A stretch of DNA of 64,000 bases, from positions 748,292-812,291 of the forward strand of contig NZ_LR701479.1 in NCBI RefSeq assembly GCF_902498745.1. Reading direction: 5' to 3'. Shown here in pieces: positions 416 to 63,115 of this stretch. Under the pieces are notes generated by a model. The model did not search any database. It was given only the letters and a program-made list of their open reading frames with translations, and had not been told where the DNA came from. The stretch comes from Erythrobacter sp. EC-HK427 (GTDB lineage Bacteria; Pseudomonadota; Alphaproteobacteria; Sphingomonadales; Sphingomonadaceae). Each line of letters opens with the position of its first letter. The first letter of the stretch is position 1. Made by a program: the position numbers and the translations under genes.

Positions 416-2949
416 GGGAGGATCACCTCGGCGTCCATGCCCAATCGCACTTCTGCCAGTGCCACCTCGCCAGCGCCCGTACCGCCGAAGAGGAATGGCG
501 TTGGAATCCGCGTCATGTCTGCCCCCTTGTCGCGGAAGCACTTGAGCGGGATGCCATAGCGGACAAAGCCTTGCCCCTCGGTCACGTTGAACGCGCTGGT
601 GGCGAGATTGCCTGTCACATCGCGCATTCCGATCACCGCATTTTCGGGCAAATCGCCAACGTTCATCGTGAACAGCAGCAAGATATCGGCATTGGTCTCG
701 CGGCTGAGATCAACCGCTTCCTGTATCCCCACCGTGATGTGCGTTGTGGTATCACCTGACAGCGTGAATTGCCGCGCGCCTTCCTGCACAACATGGTTGA
801 CCGCAGTGATCTCCACCCGACCGCCCAAGATTTCGGCAGGCACCGTGGTAATCCGGGTTTGGCTAGAAGGCTGTGCCGGATCAGTCACATGCAAAGACCA
901 GCTGGCGGCTGGAACGCCGGCCAAGAACCACGTCCGCTCGTCTCCCCCAGCCGCGACACCCGTTTCTTCGGGCAACGGAGTCCACGCCGTGTCCGGCGTT
1001 TCATAGGTGAGCCCCTCGCCGAACTCGAAAAGAGCACCGTATTCCATCCGCGCGGTCAGCGGCCACGCGGTAGGCAGGCGTCCGGTGAACGGGTAGCGCG
1101 GATTGCCCGCTGCATCGCCCACCAGCACATCGGCCACGCCCCCACCCTCGCTGCCCGGCAGCCAAGCGACGACGAACGCGTCCGAGGCGTTCAGAGCCGG
1201 ATTCACGTAAAGCGGGCGGCCGGTAATCATCAACGCGACGACGGGAATACCTTGTGCCTGCAAATCGCGCATCGTCTGCCACGGTCCGGTAAGGTTCTGG
1301 TCGAGTTGCAAGGTCGCGCGGTCGCCCTGAAATTCCGCGTAGGGGGTTTCGCCGAACACCACGACAGCCACGTCAGGACGCTGGCCAAAGCTGCCGTCGG
1401 CGGACATCTCTGCCGATCCGCCGCCCGCTTCCATCGCTTCACGGAACCCATCCCAAAGGCTGGTTGCACCGGGGAAGTGGTCCTCATTGTTGAGGCCGGT
1501 GCCTTGCCAGGTAATCGTCCACCCGCCCGACTGGCGGCCGACATCGTCGAACCCATCGCCCGTCACCAGCAAATGCCCACCCGCCGCAATCGGTAGCGTC
1601 GACTGGTTTTTCAGCAGCACAAGCGATTGGCGCACCGCATCGCGCGCCACTGCACGATGTTCTGCCGAACCGAGCAATTCATATTCGCCAGCCAGCGGCC
1701 GGGTTGACGGGGCGCCGTGATCGAACAAGCCAAGGCGGAGCTTCACCCGCAAGATACGCTCGACGGCGCTGTCGATACGTTCCATCGGCAATTCGCCGGA
1801 TTGTGCGCGGGCGAGCAGATCATTGTACACGTCGCGCCACGTATCGGGCGCCATATACATATCGATCCCCGCCAGGAGCGCCTGCGGACAGCTTTCATTG
1901 GTGCAGCCAGCAACTTGCCCGTGCGCGTTCCAATCGGACACAATGAAACCGCCAAAGCCCATCCGCTCATTCAGCACTTCGGTGAGCAGCGAGTAATTGC
2001 CCGTCATTTTGACGCCTTGCCAGCTGGAGAAGCTGGCCATCACGGTAGCGACGCCGCCCTCTACAGCCGGGCCATACGGCACGCCGTGAATGTCGCGCAG
2101 ATCCTCCTCGGAAATCGAAGAGTCACCCTGGTCGACGCCGTTGTCCGTGCCGCCATCGGCAAGGAAATGCTTGGTAGACGCGATGACATAAGGGCCGGAC
2201 AGCAGGTCCATATTATCCGGATCGCCTTGCAGCCCTTGCAGCAGCGCCCCGACATAGCTCGCCACCAGATCGGGATCGGAAGAATAACCTTCATAGGCAC
2301 GGCCCCAGCGGAAATCCTGCGGCACGGCGACGGTCGGCGCGAAGGTCCATTCCTGCCCCGTCACACGGATTTCGCGGGCGGTCACTTGGCCGATTTGTTC
2401 GATCAGCGCAGGATTATGCGCCGCACCAAGGCCGATATTGTGCGGGAAGATGGTCGCCCCGATAATGTTGGAGTGGCCATGCACCGCATCGGTGCCCCAC
2501 ACCACAGGGATGCCGACCCCGCCATCGCTGCGATCCACCGACGCGTTGTAAAACGCGTCGGCAGCAGCCAGCCAGTCAGGAGCGGGCGAGAAATCATTGC
2601 CGTTAGGGCCGGAATTGCCACCGACGAGAATCGATCCGAGATTATACTGGCGCACTTCGTCGGGCGTGACACAGCACAGATCGGCCTGGATTAGCTGGCC
2701 GATTTTCTCCTCCAATGTCATCGACGCAAGCAAGGCATCTATGCGTGCCTCGTGCTCGGCGACGACTGGAACGGGATATTCGTATTCGGGCCAGATTTCG
2801 GGATTGGCGATGCCCGGCCCCGGCGTTGCCGAACTTGTCGTGATCGCAATCGGATCGGGGGCAACCGATACCACCTCTTCCGGCACAGTGGCGCAACCCG
2901 CCAGCGCGAAAAATGGCAGCGCCGAAATTAAGACCCTGTACCGCATCAC
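406..2949 (-). CDS. GH3 family beta-glucosidase/exo-glucanase lipoprotein
   Basis: This 847-residue protein starts with a lipoprotein signal (lipobox LAGC near residue 19), so it is probably anchored in the outer membrane or periplasm. The GH3 N-terminal barrel carries KHFLADGG and the nucleophile motif SDWN with Asp339. The GH3 C-terminal domain has the VVVFGE..YAE..GD segment (around Glu539), typical of exo-1,3/1,4-beta-glucanases. A C-terminal extension of about 180 residues looks like the galactose-binding-like domain of ExoP-type enzymes. It probably releases glucose from beta-glucan or xyloglucan oligosaccharides made by the neighbouring GH5 enzymes. Two LacI-type palindromes lie just upstream of its start. 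Exact linkage specificity is inferred. Confidence 0.93.
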   Translation of the reverse strand: MMRYRVLISALPFFALAGCATVPEEVVSVAPDPIAITTSSATPGPGIANPEIWPEYEYPVPVVAEHEARIDALLASMTLEEKIGQLIQADLCCVTPDEVRQYNLGSILVGGNSGPNGNDFSPAPDWLAAADAFYNASVDRSDGGVGIPVVWGTDAVHGHSNIIGATIFPHNIGLGAAHNPALIEQIGQVTAREIRVTGQEWTFAPTVAVPQDFRWGRAYEGYSSDPDLVASYVGALLQGLQGDPDNMDLLSGPYVIASTKHFLADGGTDNGVDQGDSSISEEDLRDIHGVPYGPAVEGGVATVMASFSSWQGVKMTGNYSLLTEVLNERMGFGGFIVSDWNAHGQVAGCTNESCPQALLAGIDMYMAPDTWRDVYNDLLARAQSGELPMERIDSAVERILRVKLRLGLFDHGAPSTRPLAGEYELLGSAEHRAVARDAVRQSLVLLKNQSTLPIAAGGHLLVTGDGFDDVGRQSGGWTITWQGTGLNNEDHFPGATSLWDGFREAMEAGGGSAEMSADGSFGQRPDVAVVVFGETPYAEFQGDRATLQLDQNLTGPWQTMRDLQAQGIPVVALMITGRPLYVNPALNASDAFVVAWLPGSEGGGVADVLVGDAAGNPRYPFTGRLPTAWPLTARMEYGALFEFGEGLTYETPDTAWTPLPEETGVAAGGDERTWFLAGVPAASWSLHVTDPAQPSSQTRITTVPAEILGGRVEITAVNHVVQEGARQFTLSGDTTTHITVGIQEAVDLSRETNADILLLFTMNVGDLPENAVIGMRDVTGNLATSAFNVTEGQGFVRYGIPLKCFRDKGADMTRIPTPFLFGGTGAGEVALAEVRLGMDAEVILPCD

Positions 2950-29535: not shown

Positions 29536-30384
29536 ATGAGCGATGCAACTGTCACAAGTGAAACCAGTTCGGCGACCATCAGGCCGGAGGAAGCCGCGCA
29601 TTTCGGGAAGCTGGCGCGCGAATGGTGGGATCCCAAGGGCTCCTCCGCCATGCTGCACAAGCTCAATCCGGTGCGGCTTGGCTTTCTGCGCGCGGCGATT
29701 GACCTGCATTGGGGCGGCGATGTGCAAAGCGTGAAGCCGCTGGCGGGCAAGACCGCGCTGGATGTCGGCTGCGGCGCAGGCCTGCTGTGCGAGCCCTTGG
29801 CGCGGATGGGGGCAGAGGTGACCGGCGTCGATGCCGCGTCGGAGAATATTGCAGCGGCCAAGGCGCACGCCGCCGGTATGGGACTGCTTGCTCCCCTCCC
29901 CTCAGGGGAGGGGCTGGGGGTGGGGGGTCCGCCCTCAGTTGACGTCGCACCCCCATCCCCAACCCCTTCCCCCAAGGGAAGGGGCTTCGTCGCTTATCAC
30001 GCTGGCGAACTGGGTGCGCTTGGCCTTGGCCCGTTTGATCTGGTGACGAGCATGGAAGTGATCGAGCACGTGGCGGACAAGGCGGCGTTCCTCGCCGGAT
30101 TGGCCGCGCATCTCGCGCCCGATGGCCTGCTGGTAATGTCGACCCCCAACCGCACTTTGGCCAGCCGCGCGCTGCTGGTTGAAGGCGCGGAGGCGCTGGG
30201 CGCGGTACCCAAGGGTACGCACCACTGGGAGGATTTCGTCACGCCTGATGAACTGACCGCGATGCTTGAAGCCACCGGGCTGGCGGTGACGCGGATGCAG
30301 GGCATTGCCTTCTCGCCGATGAAGGGGCTGCATCTGAGCGAAGATATGGCGCTGAATTATATATTGAGCGCGCGGAGGGCCTAG
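29536..30384 (+). CDS. ubiG: Ubiquinone O-methyltransferase with in-frame repeat insertion
   Basis: A 282-residue SAM-dependent methyltransferase. Motif I is DVGCGAGLLCEPLARMGAEVTGVD near residue 75, and FDLVTSMEVIEHV (post-I/II) is near residue 168. It performs both O-methylations in ubiquinone synthesis. UbiG proteins are normally about 240-250 residues. Here residues about 118-151, rich in Pro and Gly, are encoded by a 92-base double hairpin repeat (29893-29984) that keeps the frame open. The insertion lies after the motif I/II region, where relatives have a short loop, so the enzyme may tolerate it. It is divergent from lysC; the start ATG has only a weak ribosome binding site. Confidence 0.93.
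   Translation: MSDATVTSETSSATIRPEEAAHFGKLAREWWDPKGSSAMLHKLNPVRLGFLRAAIDLHWGGDVQSVKPLAGKTALDVGCGAGLLCEPLARMGAEVTGVDAASENIAAAKAHAAGMGLLAPLPSGEGLGVGGPPSVDVAPPSPTPSPKGRGFVAYHAGELGALGLGPFDLVTSMEVIEHVADKAAFLAGLAAHLAPDGLLVMSTPNRTLASRALLVEGAEALGAVPKGTHHWEDFVTPDELTAMLEATGLAVTRMQGIAFSPMKGLHLSEDMALNYILSARRA
29893..29984. repeat. Double-hairpin repeat element inside ubiG
   Basis: Two terminal hairpins are visible: CCCCTCCCC (29893-29901) with GGGGAGGGG (29905-29913), and CCCCTTCCC (29963-29971) with GGGAAGGGG (29976-29984). The parts between them, a G-rich arm (29914-29933) and a C-rich arm (29946-29962), are complementary over most of their length, so the whole element folds as a Y. It resembles the short palindromic repeats common between genes in sphingomonads. 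Here it is translated in frame. A structurally similar element lies in flgI. Confidence 0.85.
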
Positions 30385-61211: not shown

Positions 61212-61883
61212 ATGACCACCCCGCTCCTTCGCTTCGGCGCAGTCATACTCGCCGCCGCAACGCTTTCGGCCTGCGCCATGGAAGGCGGGCGTCCGCGCGA
61301 AGGCTTTGCCGCCGCGCTGCCGCCGCCCCCGCGCGAATTTGCCCCAAGCAATGGCGCGATCTTCCAGCCGGAACTGGGCTATGCCGCTTTGCACGAAGGC
61401 ACCCGCGCCCGCCGCGTGGGCGATCTTGTCACCGTGGTGCTGGTGGAAAATCTTTCCAGCAACAAGACCACCTCGGCCTCTACCGACCGCAATGGCGGCA
61501 TCAATCTGACCCCTCCGACCGCCGGTCTGCTGGGATTTCTCGGGCCGGACAGCCTTAATGCCGACAACCAATCGACGTTCAATGGTCAAGGACGCGCTTC
61601 GCAGCGCAGCACGCTCAGCGGCACGATCACGGTCACCGTCGCCGAAGTGCGCCCCAATGGCACCGCGCTGGTGGTAGGAGAACGACAGATGGCATTGAGC
61701 CAGGGCGATGAATGGGTGCAGTTCGCAGGAATCCTGCGGCTGGCCGATATCGACAGCGACAACCGCATCGTCTCCAGCCGCATCGCCGATGCGCAGATCG
61801 TCTATGGCGGGCAAGGCGCGATCCAGCAGGCGAGCCGCCCCGGCTGGCTCGGCCGCTTCTTCAACATGATCAGCCCGTTCTGA
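61212..61883 (+). CDS. flgH: Flagellar L-ring lipoprotein FlgH
   Basis: A 223-residue outer-membrane lipoprotein with a lipobox LSAC (residue 21). The core IFQPELGYAALHEGTRARRVGDLVTVVLVENLSSNK near residue 57 and the C-terminal IVYGGQGAIQQASRPGWLGRFFN are family features. It forms the L-ring with LPS. It lies between flgG and flgI. Confidence 0.95.
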   Translation: MTTPLLRFGAVILAAATLSACAMEGGRPREGFAAALPPPPREFAPSNGAIFQPELGYAALHEGTRARRVGDLVTVVLVENLSSNKTTSASTDRNGGINLTPPTAGLLGFLGPDSLNADNQSTFNGQGRASQRSTLSGTITVTVAEVRPNGTALVVGERQMALSQGDEWVQFAGILRLADIDSDNRIVSSRIADAQIVYGGQGAIQQASRPGWLGRFFNMISPF

Positions 61884-61894
61884 GGGGAATGACG

Positions 61895-63115
61895 ATGCCG
61901 ATGCTGCAAGCCATTGCCCGCACTCTCCTCCCCCGCTGGCGGGGGAGGCCGGGAGGGGGAATGTCTCCTTCTGATGCCATTTGTTACACGCCCTCCCCCG
62001 GCCCCTCCCGCAGGCGGGAGGGGAGTGTTTGGGCAGCATTGCTTTGCGTGCTGATGATTGTTGTTGCCACCCCAGCCGAAGCGCAGCGGGTGCGCGACCT
62101 GGGCACGTTTGACGGTGTGCGGCCCAACCAGCTCACCGGCTACGGTATCGTCGTCGGGCTGGACGGAACGGGTGATGACAATTTCGAATATGTGACCGAA
62201 GCCATGCGCGGCACCGCCGGGCGTATGGGGCTGACTTTGCCGCCGGGTGTCTCGCCAGGCCTGCGCAATGCCGCCGCCGTCATCATTACCGCCGAACTGC
62301 CCGCTTTTGCCAAGCCGGGGCAGACCATTGACGTGACCGTCTCCACCATCGGCCGTGCGCGCTCCTTGCGCGGCGGATCGCTGGTGCTTGCCCCGCTGAT
62401 CGGCGCGGACGGGCAGATTTACGCGATGGCGCAGGGCAATCTGGCGGTCGGTGGGCTCGGCGTATCGGGCCGCGATGGCTCGCAACTTACCGTCAATGTG
62501 CCCACCGTGGGCCGCATTGCCGATGGCGCGACGGTGGAGCGCGATGTTGCCACCGGCTTTACCGACAATGGCGAATTGCGCTTCAACCTGCACAATGCCG
62601 ATTTCCAGACGGCGGCGCGGATGCGCGATGCGATCAATGTCCGCTTCCCCGGCGCGGCGCGGATTATCGACGGAGTGACGCTTTCCATCGTCATGCCCTT
62701 CGGCAGCGATGTGCGCTCGGAAATGATCGCCGAGATCGAGATGATCGAAGTGACCCCTGCCGAAAGCCCCGCGCGGGTGATCGTCAACAGCCGCACCGGG
62801 ACTGTGGTGATCAACTCGGCGGTGAGGCTCTATCCCGCAGCGATCAGCCATGGCCGCTTGATCGTGCGGATCAATGAAGACCCCGCGATCATCCAGCCCG
62901 CACCCTTCTCCCGCGGCGTCACCGCGCAAGAGGAAGCGAGCGAAATCACGCTGGAGGAAGAAGGCAGCCGCGTCGCGTTGATGCAGGGCGGAGCGAACCT
63001 GTCCGAAGTGGTCGACGCGCTCAATATGCTGGGCGTGGGCGCTTCCGATCTGGTGGTCATTCTCGAAGCCTTGAAGCAGGCGGGCGCCTTGCAGGCGGAA
63101 ATGGTGGTGCTGTGA
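61895..63115 (+). CDS. flgI: Flagellar P-ring protein FlgI with repeat in its signal peptide
   Basis: A 406-residue P-ring precursor. The mature part starts after ATPAEA (about residue 62) with VRDLGTFDGVRPNQLTGYGIVVGL and ends VILEALKQAGALQAEMVVL, the full family pattern. The signal peptide is about 60 residues because residues 11-43 are encoded by a double-hairpin repeat (61927-62023). These residues are rich in Arg and Pro (PRWRGR, SRRR) and come before the hydrophobic core. The start at 61895 is chosen because AGGGG is seven bases upstream; ATG 61889 or 61901 are alternatives, and a start after the repeat (for example GTG 62048) would shorten the hydrophobic core. Confidence 0.92.
   Translation: MPMLQAIARTLLPRWRGRPGGGMSPSDAICYTPSPGPSRRREGSVWAALLCVLMIVVATPAEAQRVRDLGTFDGVRPNQLTGYGIVVGLDGTGDDNFEYVTEAMRGTAGRMGLTLPPGVSPGLRNAAAVIITAELPAFAKPGQTIDVTVSTIGRARSLRGGSLVLAPLIGADGQIYAMAQGNLAVGGLGVSGRDGSQLTVNVPTVGRIADGATVERDVATGFTDNGELRFNLHNADFQTAARMRDAINVRFPGAARIIDGVTLSIVMPFGSDVRSEMIAEIEMIEVTPAESPARVIVNSRTGTVVINSAVRLYPAAISHGRLIVRINEDPAIIQPAPFSRGVTAQEEASEITLEEEGSRVALMQGGANLSEVVDALNMLGVGASDLVVILEALKQAGALQAEMVVL
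61927..62023. repeat. Double-hairpin repeat element inside flgI
   Basis: CCTCCCCCGC (61927-61936) with GCGGGGGAGG (61939-61948) and CCCCTCCCGC (62002-62011) with GCGGGAGGGG (62014-62023) are perfect 10-base hairpins with two-base loops. A G-rich arm (61947-61959) and C-rich arm (61991-62004) between them also pair. The architecture (hairpin, G-rich arm, spacer, C-rich arm, hairpin; 97 bases) is the same as that of the repeat in ubiG. Confidence 0.88.

Follow-up and report, generated by a model that had tools for sequence, protein, structure and literature searches.

The flgI gene in the analysed window (the whole 64,000-nt stretch of Erythrobacter sp. EC-HK427 DNA considered here) carries a dispersed, palindromic double-hairpin repeat within its signal peptide sequence, where it most probably inserted in frame, is tolerated and, once translated, makes up a stretch of an exceptionally long n-region. 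The repeat itself is best read as a selfish or passively spread sequence, comparable to the palindromic elements of Rickettsia and to intragenic REPs, which survives at sites with little constraint on length and sequence.

The flgI element and its reading frame

The element, with two 22-nt hairpins, lies where the first-pass annotation had placed it (Table 1), and the arms at 61915–61964 and 61986–62035 form a near-palindrome with 74% complementarity. The RNA of the element was predicted to fold at -64 kcal/mol (z -3.68), and none of 200 dinucleotide shuffles folded as well. Terminal inverted repeats, a criterion for MITEs, are present; the palindromic ends mask any target-site duplication, and the junction is blurred, the element-free alleles of L106 and L108 being too diverged to sharpen it.

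Table 1. Positions of the flgI features, of the related ubiG element and of in-frame copies elsewhere in the same genome. Coordinates without a prefix refer to the window, those with an L number to the respective locus.
Feature	Position	Strand	Basis and remarks
Shine-Dalgarno-like GAGGGGA	61882..61888	+	overlaps the flgH stop; best spacing to ATG 61895; G018 (L010) has the identical string ahead of its start
flgI CDS from first ATG	61889..63115	+	408 aa; second and third in-frame ATGs at 61895 and 61901
Native n-region codons, MPMLQAIART	61895..61924	+	5' of the element; cf. MLKAIFR in element-free L106/L161 and in G018 (L010)
Double-hairpin palindromic element, modelled as R1	61927..62024	+	98 nt; hairpin, BLAST, model and fold evidence
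Hairpin 1, CCTCCCCCGCTGGCGGGGGAGG	61927..61948	+	22 nt; inverted-repeat analysis
In-frame ATG within the element, behind GGGAGGGGGA	61961..61963	+	possible secondary start, judged unlikely; read in the sequence
Hairpin 2, CCCCTCCCGCAGGCGGGAGGGG	62002..62023	+	22 nt; inverted-repeat analysis
Hydrophobic core and cleavage region, WAALLCVLMIVVATPAEA	62030..62083	+	translation; by-eye alignment with PAHA/ERVRDLG of relatives
Related element in ubiG	29892..29985	+	in frame; ubiG is 29536-30384
ileS, two copies	L036:1478-1574 and 1951-2043		in frame
valS	L007:1502-1592		in frame; second, weaker valS copy at L007:816-937 (E 3e-5)
glyS beta	L004:1503-1599		in frame
uvrA	L006:1508-1601		in frame
ispE	L223:1515-1605		in frame
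Lipoyl E2-like acyltransferase	L224:1504-1596		in frame; by eye in a Pro/Glu-rich linker; protein under the cut-offs of its models
trmD	L226:1880-1990		in frame

The flgI ORF is open from 61712 to 63115, and no stop codon interrupts it across the element, which thus sits in frame between the start codon and the hydrophobic core, as had been proposed. The product matched the NCBIfam FlgI model PRK05303 at 399.9 bits (cut-off 300), the profile match beginning at query residue 67. Translated, the N-terminus reads MTMPMLQAIART-LLPRWRGRPGGGMSPSDAICYTPSPGPSRRREGSV-WAALLCVLMIVVATPAEA/QRVRDLG, and the stretch GRPGGGMSPSDAICYTPSPGPSR forms part of the predicted long precursor; a by-eye alignment with relatives places the first residue of mature FlgI at the Gln encoded at 62084. 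The element alone encodes about 33 residues, rightly described as arginine-rich: across the 65 residues of the signal peptide, seven Arg or Lys stand against three Asp or Glu, followed by the core WAALLCVLMIVV and the cleavage site AEA/Q. Judged by eye and from residue counts, the sequence has the features of a Sec signal peptide, namely a positively charged n-region, a hydrophobic core and an AXA motif at the cleavage site, in a signal peptide of about 65 residues compared to 21–27 in the element-free relatives compared.

A comparison of flgI with related strains, suggested in the first-pass annotation, yielded both element-free (L106/L161) and inverted (G018) alleles. In the element-free L106/L161 (Novosphingobium SJ636), the start of flgI reads ATGCTGAAAGCCATTTTCAGA/GCCCTGCTTTGC, i.e. 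MLKAIFR-ALLC. In G018, the element is preceded by ATGCTGAAAGCCATCTTCAGG AAC and followed by ..GGATCGCTTTGCTTGC, giving a protein of the form MLKAIFRN-element-..SLC with CGCTTTGCTTGC on the core side, and in the window ATGCTGCAAGCCATTGCCCGC ACT precedes the element and ..GCATTGCTTTGCGTGC follows it. The Arg codon preceding the element site is CGC in the window, AGG in G018 and AGA in L106. From the shared Met to mature FlgI there are 62 codons in the window versus 25 in L106, i.e. 37 more, and the insertion amounts to 36–37 codons. The element-free L106 allele together with the G018 layout thus indicates that the element split a pre-existing signal peptide of the MLKAIFR-ALLC type. The earlier claim that the repeat supplies the n-region therefore holds for its location, but the repeat was inserted behind the native MTMPMLQAIAR (MLKAIFR in G018 and L106) and lengthens an n-region already present.

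Judged from the sequence, the native start of flgI is upstream of the element. It is highly unlikely that the element is instead a non-coding 5' leader with translation beginning 3' of it, even though a codon-usage gene caller treated the element as intergenic and started flgI at GTG 62048, 24 nt past it (the approximately 35 nt 5' of the element being too short for this caller to score), and excerpts of Di Nocera et al. 2013 (PMC3733652) warn that many repeats placed at N-termini are in truth extragenic, the start having been called wrongly. The in-frame starts 3' of the element (TTG 62039, GTG 62048 and ATG 62054), the second of which the first-pass annotation had itself raised as an objection, leave 15, 12 and 10 residues before the mature protein, none of them Arg or Lys; moreover, both the native start and its n-region show conservation 5' of the element, the Shine-Dalgarno-like sequence is normally spaced to ATG 61895, and the frame is open through the element in the window, G018 and L097. 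For annotation, the odd, long N-terminus of this FlgI would then derive from a repeat that is truly coding, and not from a misplaced start.

The element could alternatively bring its own start, ATG 61961, giving a 41-residue signal peptide and replacing or adding to the native start. The strong Shine-Dalgarno-like run in front of this ATG and an in-frame GTG behind GGGAGGGC at a like place in G018 would fit such a role, which we nonetheless regard as unlikely: the internal sites were predicted to be less accessible (0.25 for ATG 61961 and 0.24 for the GTG in G018) than the native starts of both loci (0.28–0.40), the corresponding site of L097, read by eye, lacks a start codon in frame, and the native start is still intact. 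The predicted accessibility of the window's native starts (0.32–0.40) falls within the span of the element-free loci folded (0.12–0.55), and thus gives no indication that the stem alters initiation of translation, as had been suggested earlier.

Returning to the reading of a tolerated and translated insertion, a repeat of about 96 nt, made of two hairpins in inverted orientation, would have inserted into an ancestor of the present flgI allele, at a point flanked by the Arg that closes the native n-region on one side and by the hydrophobic core on the other. With a net gain divisible by three and no stop in the frame that is read, the gene would have stayed open. Sec signal peptides tolerate long positive n-regions, and n-regions prefer positive charge. 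We infer that the long precursor is translated and exported, with the repeat as part of an unusually long n-region whose arginines would be provided by the CGG/AGG-rich frames of the element; the insert would then leave with the cleaved signal peptide and mature FlgI would be unchanged. The element may have persisted since it would be nearly neutral at the signal peptide and imprecise loss would break the gene. Spread would have relied on a mover other than a RAYT, with copies surviving where n-regions accept additional length.

The repeat family and its copies in other genes

BLAST with the flgI element gave 41 matches in its own genome (self-match and both strands counted). A covariance model, R1, was built from 20 copies including the flgI and ubiG elements of the window, and this genome-scale alignment, another proposal of the first-pass annotation, resulted in a single family with at least 89 R1 matches in the genome (both strands counted), a lower bound as 150 of 1013 candidates were scored. 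In the 64-kb window, R1 at E up to 1 found two places, the flgI element at 90.8 bits and the ubiG element at 71.9 bits. The two had been described as sharing the same architecture, which stands in so far as one model matches both, but in the 20-copy alignment they are recognisably different subfamilies of the family; a lack of any relationship between them, also contemplated earlier, is contradicted by the ubiG score. The alignment contained invariant stem and arm positions, and changes on both sides were seen in 6 of 25 predicted pairs, the covariation term being small. Members of the family were also found in two other genomes, that of G018 and the Novosphingobium genome to which L097 belongs. 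A search of Rfam at E up to 1 returned 39 matches, none near its gathering score; nearly all were to microRNA precursor models of hairpin shape, and they were dismissed as chance. Copies at L038:1442, L045:1512, L046:1568, L233:1494, L236:1598 and L240:500 contain or adjoin another module, GCAGCGAGACTTGGC or the reverse complement thereof, as if one repeat had inserted into another.

At 10 of the 48 own-genome places examined, the copy lies in frame within a recognised gene, nine genes being involved (Table 1). Aminoacyl-tRNA synthetases hold four of these ten places, or five of 11 if the weak valS copy is counted, and an additional copy is found directly 5' of trmD (L226:1530-1640). A cruder caller sorted the 48 places into 31 intergenic, 12 intragenic and five overlapping; it called the flgI copy intergenic and would be wrong there if the upstream start holds. 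Copies in this genome thus lie mostly outside genes. The coding fraction of bacterial genomes is typically near 90%, and 10 of 48 copies within genes therefore represents a strong shortage, which supports tolerance and contradicts a taste for coding sequence. For 26 intergenic copies measured, on average 3.5 of the six frames were open. Ordinary 96-mers of the genome come close to this (fraction 0.60), and open frames are therefore no special property of the element.

Distribution among relatives and history of the flgI insertion

The flgI sample comprised 165 loci: 20 from the genus, 80 of 571 confirmed relatives, and 65 from the family, for which 70 of 201 genomes with a match were looked at. 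In 40 of the 165 scanned loci, the 5' end of flgI alone was covered. The junction was readable in 162 loci (L135, L153 and L187 being without the motif), and 146 were distinct. The distance from the flgH stop to mature FlgI had a median of 83 nt (144 loci where readable) and reached at least 140 nt in six loci, namely L124 (177), L115 (187), G018 (200), the window (203), L097 (212) and L119 (269); the long N-termini of L115 and L124 gave no R1 match. Across the 165 loci, matches of R1 to flgI were limited to L009 (the window), L010 (G018), L097 and L119, always in the signal peptide, and the element is accordingly present in four of the 146 distinct genes examined. The match in L119 (N. fuchskuhlense) is weak (E 5e-4), the copy being decayed to one hairpin and the inner stem; elsewhere in the same genome there is a copy with the full double hairpin. 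In L097 (Novosphingobium WM.015), the stretch from the flgH stop to the mature protein is 132 nt longer than in its near relative L108, whose flgI is without the element. Within the genus, two of 20 flgI loci carry it, those of the window and G018. Fixation across the order, which had been considered as a possible counter-argument, is thus rejected, the element being absent from most flgI loci examined; likewise, matches to ubiG in the 39 remaining genomes of the genus end at residues 115–126 and restart at 152–156, so that, judged from match spans, none spans the insert. Since few events beyond that of the window were found in the 146 distinct genes, no claim of a hot spot in flgI is made.

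A further case is provided by a Sphingomonadaceae MAG (L084), in which the signal peptide of FlgH carries the element (L084:706-803) between MPQAI and AWAAALCALAF, placed as in flgI; FlgH of L106 (MPSAICK..) represents the element-free form. The L084 protein matches FlgH models well, though under their cut-offs. Similar flanks in the L084 flgH raised the possibility of a signal-peptide cassette exchanged between flgH and flgI, which was rejected as the joined L084 sequence best matches other flgH signal peptides. All five flgI and flgH copies (window, G018, L097, L119 and L084) are found in signal peptides. Another copy lies 3' of flgI, by place near the 3' end of flgJ, in four related Novosphingobium-like genomes (L097:2850-2954, L108:2859-2963, L106:2826-2930 and, weakly, L121:2846-2926); in L097 and L106 its frame, read by eye, continues to a stop codon, and it may form a C-terminus there.

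These recurrences bear on whether selection keeps the element, for instance through a regulatory stem or a functional n-region that changes FlgI translation or export. Insertions into flgI and flgH signal peptides have occurred repeatedly in separate lineages, and Arg plus Lys exceed Asp plus Glu in all four element-bearing flgI signal peptides counted (window 7/3, G018 9/4, L097 7/0, and L119 with an assumed start), both of which selection could explain; neutral insertions would, however, survive in signal peptides likewise. We consider selection quite unlikely, as most relatives lack the element in the genus and in the wider set of distinct genes, the copies in its own genome are mostly extragenic, and the inversion of the element makes the peptide encoded in G018 wholly different from that of the window. 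The earlier wording that the repeat is selected, or at least tolerated, as coding sequence can accordingly be kept for tolerance, with which the data fit; for selection, it is unsupported by 10 of 48 copies in genes, a patchy distribution and a swapped orientation. Tentatively, the signal peptides of exported flagellar proteins could, in sphingomonads, be a recurrent landing place of coding palindromic repeats, with the flgI repeat inverted in place and its frame kept open. If so, both strands would be readable as arginine-rich n-regions, and inversion would swap one export-competent n-region for another.

The flgI copy of G018 has the opposite orientation to that of the window, and the frame is kept in G018. 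Among the 56 copies compared (with a partial G018 set), the two are reciprocal best matches, with 83% identity in the inverted alignment and 76% for the next by score; a separate comparison of the pair gave 82% when inverted versus 68% when aligned directly. Both copies have a variant stem and GGGAGGGGGAATG, neither of which occurs in the other copies inspected. Furthermore, the start pattern MxMxMLxAIxR is found among the genus loci in the window and G018 only. The tree of mature FlgI, with 111 sequences, does not join the window and G018 as sisters, G018 pairing instead with the element-free L133 (support 100/99), and a shared insertion therefore needs 5' recombination, losses or two separate insertions. 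In 17 comparisons, G018 was the nearest to the window DNA in flgH (0.80) and in the initial 400 nt of mature flgI (0.85 and 0.88), though no longer beyond these (0.765 at the 3' end), as would be expected if the two share a 5' segment by descent or recombination. Our preferred reading, and a likely one, is thus a single insertion on such a segment, followed by inversion in one line.

That two independent insertions struck one site is possible though doubtful. It would explain the opposite orientations and the separate tree positions, and it agrees with the nearest sequence to G018 being that of L133 for flgH and for the 3' half of flgI and, by a slim margin, that of L019 for the initial 200 nt of mature flgI, as well as with the flgI pair ranking 67th of 1540 copy pairs, others being more alike; against it stand the reciprocal best match, the stem variant seen in these two copies, n-regions that resemble each other and differ from those of other genus loci, and the closeness of the window to G018 in the first 400 nt of mature flgI and not later. 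In signal-peptide DNA, L010 (G018) and L106, from two genera, are alike at 19 of 21 nt at ATGCTGAAAGCCAT.., though the mature proteins are distant on the tree; the 5' end of flgI may thus have recombined, or the likeness is due to chance. With natural element-free and inverted alleles at hand, the cost of the insert is directly measurable in flgI.

Comparison with known palindromic repeats

Like the GTAG REPs, the family consists of dispersed palindromic units in inverted pairs; unlike them, it has no GTAG beside the stem and its own genome has no RAYT gene. The Y1_Tnp domain (PF01797) gave no match in this genome, with five of 14 control genomes positive, and was found in three of 40 genus genomes. 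A RAYT/Y1_Tnp protein was rejected as the mover on these grounds and since none was found in G018 either (a MAG, 74% complete). In the 20-copy alignment, the inner side of the stem shows TTA, CCG, TTG and the like followed by GGGGAGGG, and the outer side is without a conserved tag. The pattern ATTCCCGC-N4-GCGGGAAT, which we take to be typical of the CGTC REP family, did not occur above chance in the 64-kb window.

The alphaproteobacterial CGTC REPs, described in excerpts of Di Nocera et al. 2013 (PMC3733652), form inverted hairpin pairs, have no dedicated transposase and include intragenic copies, the carriers named being tRNA synthetases of X. oryzae, 'E. lithoralis' and S. alaskensis and uvrA of other species. 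The same excerpts report different REPs at about one site in two Xanthomonas recB genes. The present family resembles these in having two inverted hairpins in an alphaproteobacterium and intragenic copies, head and tail being indistinguishable in the absence of a tag. It differs, as far as the excerpted text description allows, in having no CGTC, TGTC or CCTC tag beside the stem and no CCA tail, and in a stem opening with C-G pairs instead of A-T at the first and second positions.

Passages of Delihas 2007 (PMC2759123) describe the enterobacterial RU-1/2/3 elements as 103–168 bp long and intragenic with open frames, and mention genes with predicted signal peptides. Compared by these passages only, the flgI element is similar as a short repeat whose open frame is fused within a signal-peptide gene. 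In the literature searched, the exact stem strings were not found, and a search for palindromic repeats of Sphingomonadales, Novosphingobium and Erythrobacter (the last judged by title) revealed no description of such an element.

Rickettsia is the genus best known for palindromic insertions in frame. Its RPEs comprise several families of palindromic repeats about 150 bp long; in R. conorii, according to an extract of the source, nearly half of them are intragenic as translational fusions (PMC10969869). Compared by description only, the family found here is likewise dispersed and in frame in several unrelated genes; unlike the Rickettsia elements, it resides in a sphingomonad host (with relatives such as Aurantiacibacter, Altererythrobacter and the like) and is about 96 nt long. 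Insertions of this type are thereby extended to sphingomonad ileS (twice), valS, glyS, trmD, uvrA, ispE, ubiG and flgI, offering an ordinary laboratory setting in which to ask why such repeats survive in essential genes. Set apart by published descriptions, the family is unmatched to a named one, yet it is of a known kind.
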